A DNA stretch of 64,000 nt. Source: Bradyrhizobium sp. B097 (lineage in GTDB: Bacteria > Pseudomonadota > Alphaproteobacteria > Rhizobiales > Xanthobacteraceae). The notes beneath the pieces were generated by a model. It made no database searches. It saw only the letters and a program-made list of their open reading frames with translations, and was not told where the DNA came from. Of this stretch, positions 45,345 through 62,152 are shown piece after piece (the first letter of the stretch is position 1; each line of letters starts with the position of its first letter). The position numbers and the translations under genes are program-made. The stretch spans positions 8,428,501 through 8,492,500 of the forward strand of contig NZ_CP152412.1 of NCBI RefSeq assembly GCF_038957035.1. Reading direction: 5' to 3'.

Positions 45345-48119
45345 TTACGTCGTCGCCTCCCGCACGAGTTCCTCGGCCGCCTCGGCCAGAAGCTCGTCGG
45401 ATGCTTCGCCATAAACTGACTCGCGGCCGATTTCCAGCAGCGCGGGCACGGCAAGCGGAGAAACGTGGTCGAGATCCTTGTGGGTGATTCGGCCGTGAAT
45501 GCGCGAAAGCATGTCGCTGAGGCGGCGGAGATCGAGCAATCCCGTGGCGGCATCGCCGCGCGCGGCGCGCAGCAGCACGTGGTCGGCCTGGTGCTTGCGC
45601 AGCACGTCGTAGATCAAATCGGTCGAGAACAGCACCTGGCGGCGCGACTTCTCCTCGTCGGTGAAGCGGCGCGCAATCAGTCCGGAAATGATGGCGCAGT
45701 TGCGGAAGGTGCGCTTCATCAGCGCGGATTCCGCGAGCCACGCCTCGAGATCGTCGCCGAGCATGTCGGGATCGAACAGCGCGTTGAGGTCGAGCTTGCC
45801 GTGCCGGATCATGAAGGAGAGATCGCCGACGCCCCACACTGCCAGCGCGTATTCGTTGGCGACGAAACCGAGCGGACGGGCGCGGGCGCGTTCCAGCCGG
45901 CGGGTCAGCAGCATGCCGAGCGTCTGATGCGCCAGCCGGCCCTCGAAGGGATAGCAGACCAGATAATGGCTGCCGCCGCGCGGAAAGGTTTCCACCAAGA
46001 GCTCGCGCGCCGCAGGCACACGCGAGAATTTTCGCTGCAGCGACAGCCAGTCGTGCACCTGATCCGGCAATCCGTTCCAGGCCCGGCTGTTGTCGAGCAG
46101 CTTGCGGACGCGTTCGGCGAGATAGGTCGAGAGCGGAAACTTGCCGCCCATATAGGACGGGACTTTTGCATCCTTATCATTGGCGCGGGAGACATAGACC
46201 TGGTCCTCGACCAGCGCCTCGTAGCGCACCACTTCACCGCCAAAGACAAAAGTGTCGGCGGGCACGAGGCCCTCGATGAAGACCTCCTCGATCTCGCCGA
46301 GCATCCGGCCGCCGCGGGCGATCGCGCCGGTCGAACCGCTGCCGCCGGCGCGCGAGCGCACCAGCCGCACCTTCAGCATGGTCTCCTCGACGATGGTCCC
46401 GACATTGAGGCGGTAGCTCTGCCGCACCTTGGGATTGGTGACGCGCCAGCGGCCCTGCTTGTCCTGCTTGATGCGCGCGAAACGCTCATAGGTTTTCAGC
46501 GCATAGCCGCCGGTCGCGACAAAATCGACGACGTCATCGAAATCGGTCCGCGCCAGTGCTGCATAGGGCGCTGCGGTCCTGACCTCATCATAGAGTTCGT
46601 CGGACAGGAACGGCTTGCCGCAGGCGCAGCCGAGCACGTGCTGGGCCAGCACGTCGAGCGCGCCCGAACGCAGCGGCGGCGTGTCCTGCGCATTCTCCGC
46701 AATGGCGTCGATCGCGACGGCGCATTCCAGCACCTCGAACCGGTTGGCCGGCACCAGCACGGCGCGCGAGGCCTCGTCGAAGCGGTGGTTGGCGCGGCCG
46801 ATCCGTTGCATCAGCCGCGACGAGCCTTTGGGTGCGCCGATATTGATGACGAGGTCGACGTCACCCCAGTCGACGCCGAGATCGAGCGAGGAGGTGCAGA
46901 CCACGCCGCGCAGCCGGCCAGCGGCCATCGCGTCCTCGACCTTGCGGCGCTGCGCGACGTCGAGCGAGCCGTGATGCAGCGCGATCGCGAGCCCGTCATC
47001 GTTCATGCGCCACAGATCCTGGAACAGCATCTCGGCCTGGCTGCGCGTGTTGACGAACACCAGCGTGGTCTTGTTGCGCTTGATCAGCTCGTAGACCTCG
47101 GGCAGCGCATGGCGCGCGCTGTGGCCGGACCACGGCAGCCGTTCGCGTGTGTCGAGCATCTCGACCACCGGCGGCGCGGCGCCGCCGGCGATCACGACGT
47201 CGGCAGACACGTTCTCGCCGCCCGGCTGCGGCACCAGGAAACGCGCCAGCTGCTCCGGCTCGGCCACCGTCGCCGAGAGACCGATCGCGCGCGCCTGCGG
47301 CGCGATGGTCCAGAGCCGCGTAAGCCCGAGCGAGAGAAGATCGCCGCGCTTGGAGGTGACCAGCGCATGCAGCTCGTCGAGCACGACGCGCTTCAGCGAG
47401 GAGAACAGGAAAGGCGCGTCGTCGGACGCCAGCAGCAGTGCCAGCTGTTCCGGCGTGGTGAGCAGAATATCCGGCGGATAACGCCGCTGCCGCTGCCGCC
47501 GCGACACCGGCGTGTCGCCGGTGCGGGTCTCGATCTTGATCGGCAAGCCCATCTCGGCAACCGGCGTCTCCAGATTGCGCGCGATGTCGACCGCGAGCGC
47601 TTTCAGCGGCGAGATGTAGAGCGTGTGCAGCCCACTGGAACGTCGAACGCCGCGGCCGGTGGAGATGAGAGTCCTTCTTGGCTCCGCAGCGCTCGCTGCC
47701 AGGGCTCCCTCCCCCCTTGCGGGGGAGGGCTGGGGAGAGGGGTAAGCCGGATCGTTCGGAGCAAGCGGCATACCCCTCTCCCGCCGCCCCCCGACGCGCG
47801 ATTGCGCGTCAGAGGACGTCGACCTCCCCCGCAAGGGGGGAGGTGGCGATCGAGTATGCGACAAAAGCTTTCCGTCTCTCGCCTCGTTCTCCCCACTCAA
47901 CTCCACCAGCGTCGGCAGGAACCCTGCCAGCGTCTTGCCCGCACCGGTGGGCGCAATCAGCAGCGCGGAGCGTTCCTCGCGCGCCTTCGCCAGCAGCGCG
48001 AGCTGATGCTCGCGCGGCGACCAGCCGCGCGACGCGAACCAGTCGCGAAACCGGCGCGGCAAGAGATCGGCCGTTTCCGACGGCGGAACGGAAAAGAGAT
48101 CGAGCGTCGACACGCCCAA
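45345..48119 (-). CDS. lhr: Ligase-associated DEXH helicase (Lhr family)
   Basis: A 924-residue superfamily 2 ATP-dependent 3-to-5-prime DNA helicase linked to DNA repair. Motifs are Walker A in IAPTGAGKTLAGF (residues 55-67), YISPLKALAVDIARNLE, the DELH box in VLDELHALVTSKRGD, SATVAEPE, and TSSLDLGVDWGDVDLVI and IGRANHRF in the second core domain. The start is TTG 48119 or GTG 48113. Residues about 75-160, between motifs I and Ia, are an in-frame expansion made largely of a palindromic repeat (47705-47846), which makes the protein longer than usual. Confidence 0.9.
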   Translation of the reverse strand: MGVSTLDLFSVPPSETADLLPRRFRDWFASRGWSPREHQLALLAKAREERSALLIAPTGAGKTLAGFLPTLVELSGENEARDGKLLSHTRSPPPPLRGRSTSSDAQSRVGGRRERGMPLAPNDPAYPSPQPSPARGEGALAASAAEPRRTLISTGRGVRRSSGLHTLYISPLKALAVDIARNLETPVAEMGLPIKIETRTGDTPVSRRQRQRRYPPDILLTTPEQLALLLASDDAPFLFSSLKRVVLDELHALVTSKRGDLLSLGLTRLWTIAPQARAIGLSATVAEPEQLARFLVPQPGGENVSADVVIAGGAAPPVVEMLDTRERLPWSGHSARHALPEVYELIKRNKTTLVFVNTRSQAEMLFQDLWRMNDDGLAIALHHGSLDVAQRRKVEDAMAAGRLRGVVCTSSLDLGVDWGDVDLVINIGAPKGSSRLMQRIGRANHRFDEASRAVLVPANRFEVLECAVAIDAIAENAQDTPPLRSGALDVLAQHVLGCACGKPFLSDELYDEVRTAAPYAALARTDFDDVVDFVATGGYALKTYERFARIKQDKQGRWRVTNPKVRQSYRLNVGTIVEETMLKVRLVRSRAGGSGSTGAIARGGRMLGEIEEVFIEGLVPADTFVFGGEVVRYEALVEDQVYVSRANDKDAKVPSYMGGKFPLSTYLAERVRKLLDNSRAWNGLPDQVHDWLSLQRKFSRVPAARELLVETFPRGGSHYLVCYPFEGRLAHQTLGMLLTRRLERARARPLGFVANEYALAVWGVGDLSFMIRHGKLDLNALFDPDMLGDDLEAWLAESALMKRTFRNCAIISGLIARRFTDEEKSRRQVLFSTDLIYDVLRKHQADHVLLRAARGDAATGLLDLRRLSDMLSRIHGRITHKDLDHVSPLAVPALLEIGRESVYGEASDELLAEAAEELVREATT
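47705..47846. repeat. Palindromic repeat inside the lhr coding frame
   Basis: A 21-bp arm (CCTCCCCCCTTGCGGGGGAG plus G, 47708-47728) matches its exact inverse at 47823-47843, and inner GAGAGGGGTA/TACCCCTCTC arms strengthen it. The whole element is read in-frame as helicase residues about 92-138 (for example YPSPQPSPARGEG). The same family is at 52307-52456. Confidence 0.85.
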
Positions 48120-48192
48120 GAGGTAGGTGGTTCAGCGGGTTTCGTCGAGGGCGGACGAAAATGGCGGCAGGTGGCAGGGCCGCCCTCCTCCA

Positions 48193-48335
48193 CGTCGTCC
48201 CGGCCTAGTGCGCAATTGCGCATGGGGGGCCGGGACCCATTACCCCGAATGCGTGTTGTGGAGTGACGCCGGGGCCGCAGCCTTCTAAATCACGGACAAC
48301 GGTGGTTATGGGTCCCGGCTTTCGCCGGGACGACG
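48193..48335. repeat. Palindromic repeat, GTCGTCCC/GGGACGAC family, single copy
   Basis: The ends are CGTCGTCCCGGCC and CGCCGGGACGACG, with inner CCGGGACCCATTACC / GGTTATGGGTCCCGG arms. It relates to the units at 44023-44601 and fills most of the lhr upstream gap. Confidence 0.8.
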
Positions 48336-48353
48336 CAACAGAGTTGGCGCCCC

Positions 48354-49580
48354 CTACTCCGTCATCGGCTCGCCCAGGAGGTCCCAGTCCTTGCCGTTGA
48401 AGATCGAGACATAGAGCGTCTTCATCGGCGTGTAGTCGTCGGGCGTATAGCTGTAATTGATGCCGTCGAGGAAATAGGGCGAGTGGAAGCCGGCCAGCGT
48501 GGTGGCGTGCTTCAGCACGTTGGCGCGGGTCAGATCGTCGCCGCAGCGGCGCAGGATTTCGCCCATCGTCGCCGCCTGGCCGTAGCCGGCGAAGGCGATG
48601 GTGTTGTCAGGATCGATGTTCGGCAGGTACTTCTTGCGCAGCTCCTCGAACGCGACCACATCCGCATCCTTCTCGTAGCGGGGCACGCCGACTTCCTTGT
48701 TGTAGCGGATCGCGACGATGTCCTTGGCGTTCTCGAGGCCCGCGGCGCTCAGGATCGAGCGGCCGGTCGAGCCCGCCGACAACAGCTGCAACGGCTTCCA
48801 GCCGAGCTCGGCCACCTTGCGGATCGACTGCGACGTCGCCTTGCCGGTGGTGATGTTGTAGAACACGTCGGCGCCCGACTTCGAGAGATTGATGAGCTGG
48901 GAATCGACCGTCGGATCGGTGAGATCGTAGGTCTGCTCCATGATCACCTGTGCCTTGCCGCCGGCATCGGCCAGCACCTTCTTGAACGGCCCCAGGAAGT
49001 CGCGGCCAAAATCATCGTTCTGGTAGAGGATGCCGATCCTGGCGTTCGGCTTCACGCTGACGACGTGCTTGGCGAGGATGCGCGCCTCGGTCGGATAGAG
49101 CGGCAGGCCCGCCATGGTCCATTTATTGTTCTTCGGATCGTTCCATTTCGAGGCGCCGGTGTTCAACAGCAATTGGGGGACGCCCTTGGAATTGAGGTAT
49201 TTGTGCACGGCGGTCTGCGGCGCGGTGCCGAGCGAGCCATAGAGCGCCAGCACCTCCTCCTGCTCGACCAGGCGGCGCGTCGCCTCGACGCATTTCGGCG
49301 CGCTGTAGGCGTCGTCCATGGTGAGGAATTTTACCTTGCGGCCGTTGATGCCGCCCTTGTCGTTCAGCATCTGGAAATAGGCTTCGCCGACCCGGCCGAG
49401 CACGCCATAGAGCGACCCGGGGCCGGAATGCGGCACGGTCTGGCCGAGCTTGATCTCGGTGTCACCAGCGCCCGGATCGTACTTCTTGTCGGCGGCCCGG
49501 ACGAACGGCGCAGGCAGCACGGACGCTGCGATCACGGACAATGCGGTGGCGCCGAACTCGCGCCGGGTATGTTTTTTCAT
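48354..49580 (-). CDS. ABC transporter substrate-binding protein (branched-chain amino acid type)
   Basis: A 408-residue periplasmic binding protein of the Leu/Ile/Val-binding family. It has a twin-arginine-type signal (KKHTRREFGATALSVIAASV) and the family blocks IKLGQTVPHSGPGSLYG, LNDKGGINGRKVKFLTMDD, ARIGILYQNDDFGRDFLGPF and FAGYGQAATMGEIL. No permease or ATPase genes are adjacent, so it is an orphan binding protein whose ligand is unknown. GGGAGAGAAACA precedes ATG 49580. Confidence 0.92.
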   Translation of the reverse strand: MKKHTRREFGATALSVIAASVLPAPFVRAADKKYDPGAGDTEIKLGQTVPHSGPGSLYGVLGRVGEAYFQMLNDKGGINGRKVKFLTMDDAYSAPKCVEATRRLVEQEEVLALYGSLGTAPQTAVHKYLNSKGVPQLLLNTGASKWNDPKNNKWTMAGLPLYPTEARILAKHVVSVKPNARIGILYQNDDFGRDFLGPFKKVLADAGGKAQVIMEQTYDLTDPTVDSQLINLSKSGADVFYNITTGKATSQSIRKVAELGWKPLQLLSAGSTGRSILSAAGLENAKDIVAIRYNKEVGVPRYEKDADVVAFEELRKKYLPNIDPDNTIAFAGYGQAATMGEILRRCGDDLTRANVLKHATTLAGFHSPYFLDGINYSYTPDDYTPMKTLYVSIFNGKDWDLLGEPMTE

Positions 49581-49719
49581 TGTTTCTCTCCCTGAGGCGA
49601 AAAGCTCTCGCATTCCGCCTTGCGCCGGGCAAGCGCGAAGTCACGGCTTTGCGGCGCAATGCCGCGTCACGGCAAATGCGTAGCGTGTAGACTCAAGTCT
49701 GAGAGCGATGCGTCGCTCT

Positions 49720-49862
49720 CTTACCTTCTCCCCTTGTGGGAGAAGGTGGCGCGGACGCAGTCCGCGACGGATGAGGGGTATGCATCCGCGGAGAGAAACC
49801 CCTCACCCGGCTTCGATGCTAGCGCATCGAAGCCACCCTCTCCCACAGGGGGAGAGGGTGAG
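49720..49862. repeat. Palindromic repeat, CTTCTCCC/GGGAGAAG family
   Basis: Two self-complementary ends (ACCTTCTCCC/GGGAGAAGGT at 49723-49747; ACCCTCTCCC/GGGAGAGGGT at 49835-49859) bracket GATGAGGGGT / ACCCCTCACC arms and a central GGCTTCGATGC/GCATCGAAGCC hairpin. It lies between the binding-protein gene and the methyltransferase stop. Confidence 0.82.
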
Positions 49863-49867
49863 AAAGA

Positions 49868-50794
49868 TCACGGCTTGACGGCGACAGCCACGAGCCCGGG
49901 CGCCGGGATGTTGTCCTCATTGCGCGCCGAGAGATCGTCGAGCAGAGCCAGCGTCAGCCCGGCGGCGGCGACCGAGGCGCGCACGTAGGCCGCGCTGTGG
50001 GCGTAGCGCAGCCCCTCGCCGAGGATGACGCCCTCGCCGTCATGGGTCTCGGTCGTGAAGGCGATCACGCCGCCCCCGACCAGCACGCGCGCAGCCTCGG
50101 CAAGCACGGGCGCGAGATCGGCGACATAGACCATCGCGTCCGCAGCGATGATCAATTCGGCACTGGCGTCCGGCTTGCCCGAAATACCCCTCAGCATGTC
50201 GTCGACCTCGAGCTCGGCATAGAGCCCGGTCGCGCGCGACTTGTCGATCATGCGCGGCGACAGGTCGATGCCGATGAAGCGATCGACGTGCTGCGCGAAT
50301 GCAGCGGCCGCGAGGCCGGTGCCGCAGCCGAGATCGATCGCGCGCTTGAAGAACGCCGGCTTCCTCGCAGAGGCGCGCACCGACAGCACCGCCTTGAACA
50401 GCAGCGCCGGGCCGCGATAGCCGAGATCGCCGACCAGCGCGGCCTCGAAGCGCGGCGCATATTGATCGAACAACGTCTGCACATAGCCCGGCGGCATCGC
50501 GCTGACGGCCTCGACGCCGAGTTGCATCAGATGCAGGCCGGCGCCATGGCGGTCTTCGGGGTCGGCATCGCGTGCGGCGCGGAAGGCTGCGATCGCGGCT
50601 TCACGCTGGCCGAGCTCGAGGCGGATCTTGCCCAGCGTGTACCAGGCCGACGGGAATTCCGGCACCAGCTCGATCGCCTGTTCGAGCAGCTCGGCGGCAG
50701 CCGGCAGATCGCCCTTCAATTGCAGGTCGCGCGCGAACTCGTAGCGGCGGTCGGCAACCAGGTCGCCGGAGGACAGAAACAGGCGGGGGGCCAT
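49868..50794 (-). CDS. TPR-containing SAM-dependent methyltransferase
   Basis: A 308-residue protein with an N-terminal tetratricopeptide part (residues about 15-90: ARDLQLKGDLPAAAELLEQAIEL, AWYTLGKIRLELGQREAAIAAFRAA) and a class I methyltransferase domain (IDLGCGTGLAAAAFAQHVDRFIGIDLSPRMID). The substrate is unknown; similar fusions are annotated only as predicted TPR methyltransferases. It is divergent from the repair exonuclease gene across 132 bp. Confidence 0.88.
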   Translation of the reverse strand: MAPRLFLSSGDLVADRRYEFARDLQLKGDLPAAAELLEQAIELVPEFPSAWYTLGKIRLELGQREAAIAAFRAARDADPEDRHGAGLHLMQLGVEAVSAMPPGYVQTLFDQYAPRFEAALVGDLGYRGPALLFKAVLSVRASARKPAFFKRAIDLGCGTGLAAAAFAQHVDRFIGIDLSPRMIDKSRATGLYAELEVDDMLRGISGKPDASAELIIAADAMVYVADLAPVLAEAARVLVGGGVIAFTTETHDGEGVILGEGLRYAHSAAYVRASVAAAGLTLALLDDLSARNEDNIPAPGLVAVAVKP

Positions 50795-50926
50795 TTTCTC
50801 TTAGGGAACCGATCTTGGCCAGGTCCGGCCATCCATCAAAGCATGGACTTTTTCCGGAGATGGAAGCGCCGGTCAAGCCCGCTCGCGACCGCTAAACATC
50901 GCCGAGGGAGCACCTATATTGCGACA

Positions 50927-52006
50927 ATGCGCCCGCAAGACATCCTGATGCCCGTCCCCGCCGGGCTTTGCTGCAAGCCCGGCGGCTTCCACATCGATCC
51001 TGTCAGGCCGGTCGAACGGGCGCTGATCACGCATGGCCATTCCGACCATGCGCGGGCGGGTCATGGCGCGGTTCTCGCGACCCAGGAAACGCTCGACATG
51101 ATGCGGCTGCGCTACGGCGAGAATTTCGCCGGCACGACGCAGGCGGTCGCTTACGGCGAGGAGATCAGGCTCGGCGACGTCACGGTGACGTTTCATCCCG
51201 CCGGCCACGTATTGGGCTCCGCCCAGATATCGGTCACCTGCAAGGACACCCGCATCGTCGCCTCCGGAGACTACAAGGACGCACGCGACCCGACCTGCGC
51301 GCCGTTCGAGCTCGTGCCGTGCGACGTCTTCATCACGGAGGCGACTTTTGGGCTGCCGGTGTTTCGCCATGGCGATGCCGCCGACGAGGTGAAGAAACTG
51401 CTGGCCTCCGTAAAACTGTTTCCGGAGCGCGCGCATCTGGTCGGCGCCTATTCGCTCGGCAAGGCGCAGCGCGTCATCGCGCTGCTGCGCGAGGCCGGCT
51501 ACGACGCGCCGATCTATCTGCACGGCGCGATGGAGAAGATCACTTATTACTATCAGGAACGCGGCATCCCGCTCGGCGAGCTCCGGCCGGCGCGCGGCAT
51601 GAAGAAGGCCGAGCTTGCCGGCACCATCACGCTGGCGCCGCCGAGCGCGACCTCCGATGTCTGGACGCGCCGCTTCCCCGATCCGGTCACGGCTTTTGCG
51701 TCGGGCTGGATGCGGGTGCGCGCCCGGGCGCGGCAAGGCGGCATCGAGCTGCCGCTGGTGATCTCGGATCACGCCGACTGGGACGGACTGACGGCGACGA
51801 TCGCAGCCACCGGCGCCGGCGAGATCTGGGTCACCCACGGCCAGGAAGATGCGCTGGTGCATTGGTGCAAGAGCAAGGGACTTGCGGCGCGGCCGCTCGA
51901 TCTGGTCGGCTATGGCGACGAGGACGAGAGCGAGGCGGCAGCGGTCACCGGCGAGGCGGAGCCCACCGGCGAAGGCCAGCCCGTCGGCGAGACCAAGAAG
52001 CCATGA
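50927..52006 (+). CDS. Ligase-associated DNA exonuclease (MBL fold)
   Basis: A 359-residue metallo-beta-lactamase/beta-CASP nuclease of the ligase-associated repair set. It has the metal motif ITHGHSDHARAGHG, FHPAGHVLGSAQI, VASGDYKDARDPTC, a beta-CASP region (LVGAYSLGKAQRVIALLREAGYDAPIYLHGA) and the late VISDHADWDGL. It trims DNA ends before ligation. Its stop overlaps the ligase ATG (ATGA), so the two proteins are coupled. The last 35 residues are acidic and low-complexity. Confidence 0.92.
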   Translation: MRPQDILMPVPAGLCCKPGGFHIDPVRPVERALITHGHSDHARAGHGAVLATQETLDMMRLRYGENFAGTTQAVAYGEEIRLGDVTVTFHPAGHVLGSAQISVTCKDTRIVASGDYKDARDPTCAPFELVPCDVFITEATFGLPVFRHGDAADEVKKLLASVKLFPERAHLVGAYSLGKAQRVIALLREAGYDAPIYLHGAMEKITYYYQERGIPLGELRPARGMKKAELAGTITLAPPSATSDVWTRRFPDPVTAFASGWMRVRARARQGGIELPLVISDHADWDGLTATIAATGAGEIWVTHGQEDALVHWCKSKGLAARPLDLVGYGDEDESEAAAVTGEAEPTGEGQPVGETKKP

Positions 52007-53925
52007 ATCGCTTTGCCGAGCTGCTCGACCGACTCGCCTACGAGCCGGGCCGCAACAACAAGATCAAGCTGCTGGTTGCCTATTTCCGCGAAACCGAGGA
52101 TCCCGACCGCGGCTACGCGCTGGCGGCGCTGACCGGCGCGCTGTCGTTCAAGCACGCCAAGCCGGGCTTGATCCGCGACCTGATCACCGAACGCACCGAC
52201 CCGGTGCTGTTCGGCTACTCCTATGACTACGTCGGCGATCTCTCCGAAACCGTCGCGCTGATGTGGCCGAAGGCTGGAGCAAATTACGTCGAGTCTTTCC
52301 TGGGCCACCCCTCTCCCCAACCCTCCCCCACAAGGGGGGAGGGAGCCCAACCGTCGTGCTCACCTCACAGCGATGTTGAAGGAATTGATGTCAGTAAGGG
52401 ACGTGTCACTGGACAGGCTCCCTCCCCCCTTGCGGGGGAGGGCTGGGGAGAGGGGTACCGCGGGCGAGGTGTCGGTGAGATCACTCGCACCCACAACAAC
52501 CCGCCTCCGCCCACCCTCACCGACGTCGTCACCACGCTGCGCACGCTCGGCAAGGCCGAGTTGCCGGCGCAGCTGGCGCGCTGGCTGGACGAGCTCGACG
52601 AGACCGGGCGCTGGGCGCTGTTAAAACTCGTCACCGGCGCGATGCGGATCGGAATCTCGGCGCGGCTGGCGAAGACCGCGGCGGCGGCGCTCGGCGATAA
52701 GGATCCACACGAGATCGAGCTGATGTGGCCCGGCCTGTCGCCGCCCTATCCCGAATTGTTCGCCTGGCTCGAAGGCCGCGGCGACAAGCCGGTCAACCTC
52801 GATCCAACGCCGTTCCGCCCGGTGATGCTGGCGCATGCAATCGAGGATGCCGATTTCGCCAATCTCGACGCGGCCGATTTCAGCGCGGAATGGAAGTGGG
52901 ACGGCATCCGTGTGCAGGCTGTCGCCGGCCGCGATGCGTGCGGTCACATCCGGGCGCGGCTCTATTCACGCACCGGCGAGGACATCACCGGCAGCTTCCC
53001 CGACCTCGTGCCGTCGCTGCATCTCCAAGATACTCTAGATTTGAAGCATGATGACTCCCGAAAACCGCTTCACACTTTTCGGCATCATGCTTCATTCGCG
53101 ATCGACGGCGAATTGCTGGTGCTGCGCGACGGCCGCGTGCAGACCTTCAACGTGTTGCAGCAGCGGCTGAACCGCAAGGTTGTCTCGCCGAAGCTGATCA
53201 AGGAGTTTCCGATCCACTTGCGCGCCTACGACCTGCTCGGCGACGGCGAAAACGATTTGCGCGAGCTGCCCTTCACCGAGCGCCGCGCGCATCTCGAAGC
53301 CTTCGTCGCGAAGCTGAACGATCCGCGCATTGATCTGTCGCCGACAGTCCCGTTCGCGAGCTGGGAAGAACTGGCCGCGGCGCGGGCCGATCCGAAGAGC
53401 GCCGGCGCCGGCGACGATGCCGACGCGGTCGAGGGCGTGATGCTGAAGCGGCGCGACGCGCCCTACCTGCCCGGACGGCCGAAGGGCCCGTGGTGGAAGT
53501 GGAAGCGCGATCCGCACATCATCGACGCCGTGCTGATGTATGCCCAGCGCGGCCACGGCAAGCGCTCGTCCTATTACTCCGACTACACGTTCGGGGTCTG
53601 GACCCGTGGCGATGCTGGCGACGAGCTGGTGCCGGTCGGCAAGGCCTATTTCGGCTTCACCGACGAGGAACTGTTGCAGATCGATCGCTTCGTCCGCCGC
53701 AACACCACCGAGAAGTTCGGCCCGGTGCGGCATGTCGTGCACGAGCCGGATCAGGGGCTGGTGCTGGAAGTCGCCTTCGAGGGCCTGCAACGCTCGCCGC
53801 GTCACAAATCCGGCATCGCGATGCGCTTTCCCCGGATCAGCCGCCTGCGCTGGGACAAGCCGCCGCGCGAGGCCGACCGGCTGGAGACACTTGAACGGAT
53901 GTTAATCTCCATGACAGGAAGTTAA
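52003..53925 (+). CDS. ATP-dependent DNA ligase of the ligase-associated repair set
   Basis: A 640-residue ATP-dependent ligase; the usual family length is nearer 540-550. The N-terminal domain (FAELLDRLAYEPGRNNKIKLLV) leads to the nucleotidyl-transfer motif EWKWDGIRVQAV with K298, then FAIDGELLVL, EGVMLKRRDAPYLPGRP and WWKWKRDPHIIDAVLMYAQRGHGKRS, and an OB-fold end. Two palindromic repeats are read through: residues about 102-152 (52307-52456) and about 347-364 (53043-53093). Both lie outside the catalytic motifs, so the enzyme may be active. It is coupled to the exonuclease gene. Confidence 0.92.
   Translation: MNRFAELLDRLAYEPGRNNKIKLLVAYFRETEDPDRGYALAALTGALSFKHAKPGLIRDLITERTDPVLFGYSYDYVGDLSETVALMWPKAGANYVESFLGHPSPQPSPTRGEGAQPSCSPHSDVEGIDVSKGRVTGQAPSPLAGEGWGEGYRGRGVGEITRTHNNPPPPTLTDVVTTLRTLGKAELPAQLARWLDELDETGRWALLKLVTGAMRIGISARLAKTAAAALGDKDPHEIELMWPGLSPPYPELFAWLEGRGDKPVNLDPTPFRPVMLAHAIEDADFANLDAADFSAEWKWDGIRVQAVAGRDACGHIRARLYSRTGEDITGSFPDLVPSLHLQDTLDLKHDDSRKPLHTFRHHASFAIDGELLVLRDGRVQTFNVLQQRLNRKVVSPKLIKEFPIHLRAYDLLGDGENDLRELPFTERRAHLEAFVAKLNDPRIDLSPTVPFASWEELAAARADPKSAGAGDDADAVEGVMLKRRDAPYLPGRPKGPWWKWKRDPHIIDAVLMYAQRGHGKRSSYYSDYTFGVWTRGDAGDELVPVGKAYFGFTDEELLQIDRFVRRNTTEKFGPVRHVVHEPDQGLVLEVAFEGLQRSPRHKSGIAMRFPRISRLRWDKPPREADRLETLERMLISMTGS
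52307..52456. repeat. Palindromic repeat inside the ligase frame, element 1
   Basis: 41-bp inverted arms lie at 52307-52347 and 52416-52456 (beginning ACCCCTCTCCCC) with two mismatches and a 68-bp loop. It encodes PSPQPSPTRGEG on the left and PSPLAGEGWGEGY on the right, in the ligase frame. It is the same family as 47705-47846. Confidence 0.9.
53043..53093. repeat. Palindromic repeat inside the ligase frame, element 2
   Basis: GAAGCATGATG at the left pairs with CATCATGCTTC at the right, with inner CCGAAAA/TTTTCGG arms around CCGCTTCACAC. It is a second, unrelated repeat type, encoding KHDDSRKPLHTFRHHAS in the ligase. Confidence 0.82.
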
Positions 53926-61946: not shown

Positions 61947-62010
61947 TCAGGCTCTCTCCAAAAAGGCCGCGAAAACTAACGCTTTCGCGGAAAAATGCAA
62001 AACGGCGCTC

Positions 62011-62152
62011 CCTCGCCCCGCCCTTGCGGGGAGAGGGTTGGGGTGAGGGGCTCTATCCGCGTAACCGGCAAGAGAGGAATTCGCGGAGGCCCCCCTCACC
62101 CGGAATTCAAGCTGCGCTTGAATTCCGACCTCTCCCCGCAAGCGGGGCGAGG
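62011..62152. repeat. Palindromic repeat, CCTCGCCCCG / CGGGGCGAGG family
   Basis: The outer arms CCTCGCCCCGCCCTTGCGGG..AGAGG and CCTCTCCCCGCAAGCGGGGC..GAGG pair, with inner GGTGAGGGG / CCCCTCACC arms and a central GAATTCAAGC/GCTTGAATTC hairpin. It sits between lysS and the solute-binding protein gene. Confidence 0.85.

Follow-up and report, generated by a model that had tools for sequence, protein, structure and literature searches.

The window analysed here, a stretch of 64,000 nucleotides from the genome of Bradyrhizobium sp. B097 (9.25 Mb, single contig), carries on its + strand a gene for an ATP-dependent DNA ligase of 640 amino acids (52003..53925). The product matches TIGR04120 (cisplatin damage response) with 790 bits, against a curated cut-off of 400, and its frame begins with the ATG at 52003 and stays open up to a stop codon whose last base is 53925, taking in two palindromes on the way. 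The ligase start is overlapped by the stop of the + strand frame 49997..52006, which contains a ligase-associated exonuclease (TIGR04122, residues 317-642) and in which no arm of the ligase palindrome was found. A ligase-associated DEXH helicase of 924 amino acids (TIGR04121, by profile match) is encoded on the - strand at 45345..48119. The Rfam scan of positions 47500-53300 gave no match near the gathering score.

Structure of the palindrome and its copies in the genome

The first palindrome (52307-52456, 150 bp) consists of a left arm (52307..52347, + strand, 41 nt) that is itself a REP-like hairpin, a spacer of 68 nt (52348..52415, + strand) and a right arm (52416..52456, - strand, 41 nt) that is an inverted copy of the REP-like unit of the left one. 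This unit is a small hairpin of the form ACCCCTCTCCCCAACCCTCCCCC(A/G)CAAGGGGGGAGGGAGCC. An earlier note on this DNA had described 41-bp arms with two mismatches inside an open ligase frame and had considered the hairpin to be an intergenic-type repeat inserted in frame, and these points were borne out by our analysis. In fact, 39 of the 41 arm positions are paired (95% complementary), and the RNA fold of the element reaches -112.3 kcal/mol, against a mean of -73.2 for shuffled versions (z -8.8; 0 of 200 shuffles as good); the frame is uninterrupted across the element, and close relatives with a near-identical ligase do not have it.

The palindrome is also present at dozens of further sites of the genome, again as a doublet of inverted REP-like hairpins, with at least 131 blastn matches when 40 of 167 candidate stretches were scored. 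With the same scoring, the matches listed include no copy between 2.96 and 6.07 Mb, a third of the chromosome. A chance palindrome was ruled out by the arm pairing, the copies across the genome and the fold z of -8.8 against shuffles. Exact arm cores number 5 + 45 in this genome, including the coding ones, and 31 inverted arm pairs were found in the window and 33 fetched stretches, in both relative orders: 10 of them, including that of the ligase itself, are arranged as in the ligase and 21 in the opposite way. On average, 1.8 of the six frames are open through an arm pair. Most copies lie outside recognised genes, and among 10 scanned frames that span other copies a single one, that of DnaE2 (locus L250; loci are given as L numbers), matched a protein family across the copy. 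Of five further stretches with long frames (L333-L337), L333 and L334 were inspected, and in both the repeat was judged by eye to be outside of, or antisense to, the likely genes. Another frame (L257:1519-2268) matches NfeD at residues 195-247 only, with a degenerate repeat copy upstream of that match, and a diverged single arm is located at positions 62010-62051 of the window. Finally, the Y1/RAYT transposase profile PF01797 had no match in this genome, in a search whose control was positive in 5 of 14 genomes, and a RAYT was on this basis rejected as the mover of the palindrome, although an unrelated or degenerate mover may be present.

Insertion site

When compared to the nearest empty relatives, the DNA without counterpart extends approximately from 52274 to 52490 (+ strand), where L132 has 13 nt, and the palindrome lies inside this stretch. 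The gap at the site is 237 nt in the window and 33 nt in repeat-free relatives, a net difference of 204 nt, and the added residues are thus about 68 (68 codons) and not the 50 or so that the earlier note had proposed. Likewise, the borders are not exactly those of the repeat, a point that the earlier note had proposed to check: against the nearest relatives with an empty loop, a further 33-34 nt are extra at either end of the palindrome. The sole case close to an exact border is that of L160 (an allele identical to L045) and its tree neighbour L128, which differ by 144 nt, nearly the palindrome alone. Because the extra stretch exceeds the palindrome, the initial insertion may have involved more DNA or may have occurred stepwise.

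In the ligase frame the insert would be translated into a Pro/Ser/Gly-rich peptide. The AlphaFold model of the enzyme, whose fold aligns to human ligase 1 over its whole length, gives residues 93-164 a pLDDT below 50, between helices at residues 80-87 and 172-181. This model thus places the insertion in a disordered loop inside the N-terminal DNA-binding domain, and not between this domain and the catalytic part, as the earlier note had it.

Filled and empty alleles among relatives

We collected ligase loci from the 80 best named records, 32 of which belong to Bradyrhizobium, and from 110 of 146 searched genomes of the genus, whereas for the other 36 the best match was weaker or not listed. 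As 4 named and 3 genus loci lacked the N-terminal part, 76 + 107 = 183 loci were left, with some strains present in both sets. In the genus set the loop is filled (at least 20 residues) in 64 of 107 loci and empty in 43, with a patchy distribution over the gene tree; empty loci have a short loop of 10-12 residues that ends in HNNPPPP or nearly so. Repeat types were set by motif and, for L160, L182 and L190, changed after visual inspection; the filled loci comprise 56 with the repeat type of the window, one with this and another type, two and four with two other types, and one with the flanks without palindrome. In the named set (n=76), 40 loops have at least 20 residues, 34 are shorter and two have a broken frame.

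Four loci whose ligase is 96-100% identical to that of the window over the first 91 residues (L132, L134, L138 and L139) have no palindrome at this site. L132 and L134, identical or 99% identical over those residues, carry the second palindrome only, L112-L114 the first one only, and L138 and L139 neither. The stem has been lost in some alleles (L140, L222). Further short in-frame insertions, some of them palindromic, are located near the arm tips in L121, L130, L177, L178, L186, L188, L189, L196, L203 and the DnaE2 locus L250.

Whatever the filling, a single frame is kept across the loop in 181 of 183 ligase loci, some of which come from the same strain. The two exceptions, both from Rhodopseudomonas palustris, lose the frame where the repeat would lie: L080 (a run of N) and L087 of strain JSC-3b (a 133-nt gap). 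These two loci are what could be cited for a decaying ligase, broken by the insert and open by chance. However, many ligase residues are invariant in a 38-row alignment that includes the window, and the core has a pN/pS of 0.08 among pairs all carrying the insert, on which a pseudogene was rejected; together with the in-frame loci, this makes decay extremely unlikely.

The patchy distribution could result either from many independent insertions, one per lineage, or from the exchange of old alleles. On the ligase gene tree the filled/empty state changes 31 times, against 32.6 (sd 2.6) for shuffled labels (99 rows), and such a number of changes, with no more order than shuffled labels have, would be expected if insertions were independent. 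However, beyond the palindrome itself, filled alleles across the genus have the same flanks (ESF/ESL..GH and GY..), an indication of shared ancestry, and the state tracks the 130 nt just upstream of the insert (23 changes against 32.5 when shuffled, z -4.0). For all 261 upstream nt the z was -2.8, and no linkage was found to the parts downstream of the insert (z -0.5 to 0.2). Some discordant sister pairs show a local rise in differences, such as L122/L231 with 12 in 87 nt, against about two elsewhere; a rise is also seen in the concordant pair L120/L127, and other discordant pairs show none. We therefore regard independent insertion of this repeat as rather unlikely, while it is likely for the other repeat types. 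Filled and empty alleles would instead have been exchanged, probably as the main route, through recombination events whose breakpoints fall close to the loop.

Evolution of the insert and the enzyme core

In 22 pairs of filled alleles, with each row used once, pN/pS is 0.08 for the core and 0.64 for the filled loop, at about equal pS (0.255 and 0.264, respectively). The comparison of regions by codon position, made over all (non-independent) pairs, gave for the nearest pairs 0.24/0.25/0.26 differences at the three positions of the spacer, that is, no codon-position bias; in the flanks, third positions have no more than a slight excess, and the HNNPPPP tail is under ordinary codon constraint. 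Over the four distance bins, differences per site amount to 0.05-0.12 in the arms, whereas they range over 0.13-0.37 at core third positions; the weakest point is the nearest pairs, where second positions of the left arm (0.115) come close to core third positions (0.131). The unbiased spacer and the arms conserved at all positions indicate that the spacer drifts as if it were untranslated and that the arms are held as DNA. The loop would then be translated, with the insert as a passenger at the DNA level.

The pN/pS of the insert, which is below 1, and the presence of a loop of at least 20 residues in 64 of 107 genus genomes could also indicate that the peptide has been recruited for a function, as a linker or contact site. 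This is very unlikely in our view, since codon position matters little in the flanks and not at all in the spacer, the remaining 43 genomes do without a filled loop, and the conserved arms together with the HNNPPPP tail can explain the value of 0.64. Furthermore, other genes read this DNA in phases that differ from those of the ligase, with the exception of one helicase arm: the two arms are in phases 2/2 for the ligase, 1/2 for the helicase and 0/0 for DnaE2, so that they do not differ throughout.

Within a gene the arm tips agree, with G/G in 25, A/A in 15 and mixed tips in three of 56 cases, the other 13 being unread on one or both sides. The tip of a coding arm is the commoner one of its genome in 41 of 47 left and 40 of 44 right informative arms, a match that does not reach significance when kinship is taken into account, with too few pairs then left, and the arms may or may not have been homogenised by genomic copies. 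The co-varying tips, the conservation of the arms at all codon positions and the very stable fold would also fit a hairpin that acts in mRNA or DNA, slowing the ribosome, a polymerase or an exonuclease, and is selected for that. We consider such a role unlikely, as the element is missing in 43 of 107 genomes, the stem is lost in L140 and L222, and copying between arms or from genomic copies is expected to give the same pattern.

Other palindromes, repair genes and genera

The ligase contains a second in-frame insert of 72 nt (53029..53100, + strand) with perfect 12-nt arms (53042-53053 and 53083-53094), at a site that has 6 nt in 168 of 183 ligase loci. It belongs to another genomic repeat family, for which the scoring of 40 of 78 candidate stretches gave at least 40 matches. 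This insert is also present at the same place in L132, L134, L039, L046 and L079 (a Nitrobacter MAG), and remnant-like short loops in L064, L075, L133, L153 and L158, those of L064 and L153, and of L075 and L158, being letter-identical.

Further coding copies of the ligase repeat, a search for which had been suggested, were found in DnaE2 of this genome (L250; NF004225, 1414 bits) and in the adjoining helicase, whose variable loop (47646..47891, - strand) contains an in-frame copy with perfect 21-nt arms at 47708-47728 and 47823-47843. In the best 30 loci of each gene, from 60 genomes searched, the helicase and DnaE2 have one place each with variable filling, whose length keeps the frame in 28 of 30 helicase and 30 of 30 DnaE2 loci. 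The helicase exceptions are L287 (a broken loop of 223 nt) and L288 (a run of N). Of the 30 helicase loops, 13 are shorter than 90 nt and the other 17 were tested; in 14 of the latter, and in 29 of 30 DnaE2 loops, the palindrome exceeds those of shuffled versions. It is striking that three repair enzymes have the same habit, but this was seen in a search made with one repeat in one genome.

Among 38 ligase inserts of at least 60 nt that are not of the window type by motif (L190 included), 26 have a palindrome that scores above the best of 20 shuffled versions, and in the other 12 the score stays below; the 26 include records of Methylobacterium, Methylorubrum, Afipia and Xanthobacteraceae and a Rhodobacteraceae MAG. 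Two Methylobacterium inserts are multi-copy in their own genomes, with at least 92 (40 of 148 stretches scored) and at least 71 (40 of 104) matches. Blastn clustering put 149 of 150 inserts in one group at low thresholds and split them into 15 groups at 60 bits, and because most inserts are chained together in this way, we give no count of repeat families. With the site filled repeatedly within the genus as well as in other genera, and a second palindrome in the same gene, the insert is not a single oddity. That many relatives have this repeat, or a different one, at the corresponding position suggests that the enzyme tolerates repeat DNA in one loop.

Discussion

All these data make it very likely that a REP-doublet palindrome of this genome was inserted in frame in a tolerant loop of the ligase, between two helices of the DNA-binding domain. 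As this loop would accept any length that keeps the frame, the insert is very probably translated, as a disordered passenger peptide, and the enzyme should still work. The same loop, together with those of the helicase and DnaE2, has been filled repeatedly by this and other palindrome types in related bacteria, and filled and empty alleles would have been swapped among strains by homologous recombination. The arms may be kept at the DNA level, either by copying between repeats or by selection on the hairpin, which would explain why they resemble the genomic repeat, while the peptide itself would not be kept. A broader and rather doubtful extension is that loops of repair enzymes (the LigC-type ligase, the helicase and DnaE2) are preferred, repeatedly refilled landing sites of palindromic mobile repeats in Hyphomicrobiales, and that the exchange of filled and empty alleles leaves strains with different variants of these enzymes.

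The palindromes are a case, outside the Rickettsiales, in which repeat DNA of a selfish type has repeatedly entered open frames at fixed positions of repair enzymes that are conserved. Since close relatives have shortened and differently filled alleles besides filled and empty ones, it can be tested directly how coding palindromes are gained and lost and what they cost. Moreover, proline- and glycine-rich runs such as PSPQPSPARGEG in these enzymes would be translated repeats, and so a trap for annotation.

Conserved enzymes can have insertion-tolerant disordered loops that vary in length and have little sequence constraint, and the ligase loop is like them in both respects, but its filling is identifiable repeat DNA and is still so at the DNA level. 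Regarding the DNA element, BIMEs have two REP-like hairpins inverted around a spacer and many copies per genome. REPINs are described from extragenic space and together with RAYT transposases (Bertels and Rainey 2011, PMC3116915). The palindrome shares with REPINs the two REP-like units inverted into a hairpin around a spacer and the many copies per genome; it differs in that the ligase copy is coding and not extragenic and that PF01797 was not found in this genome.

Finally, the insert may be regarded as analogous to the Rickettsia palindromic elements, likened by description rather than by sequence, and the parallel drawn in the earlier note, an in-frame repeat in a conserved gene, is a fair one. 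These elements, reportedly treated by Ogata in 2002, and similar ones in Wolbachia are palindromic repeats of about 100-150 bp that are read in frame in conserved genes. As in their case, the palindrome described in this work lies in frame in a protein-coding gene of conserved function. In contrast to them, it belongs to another alphaproteobacterial order and has a GC-rich REP-doublet sequence; furthermore, most of its copies are in no recognised gene, and one and the same loop has been refilled by several palindrome types.
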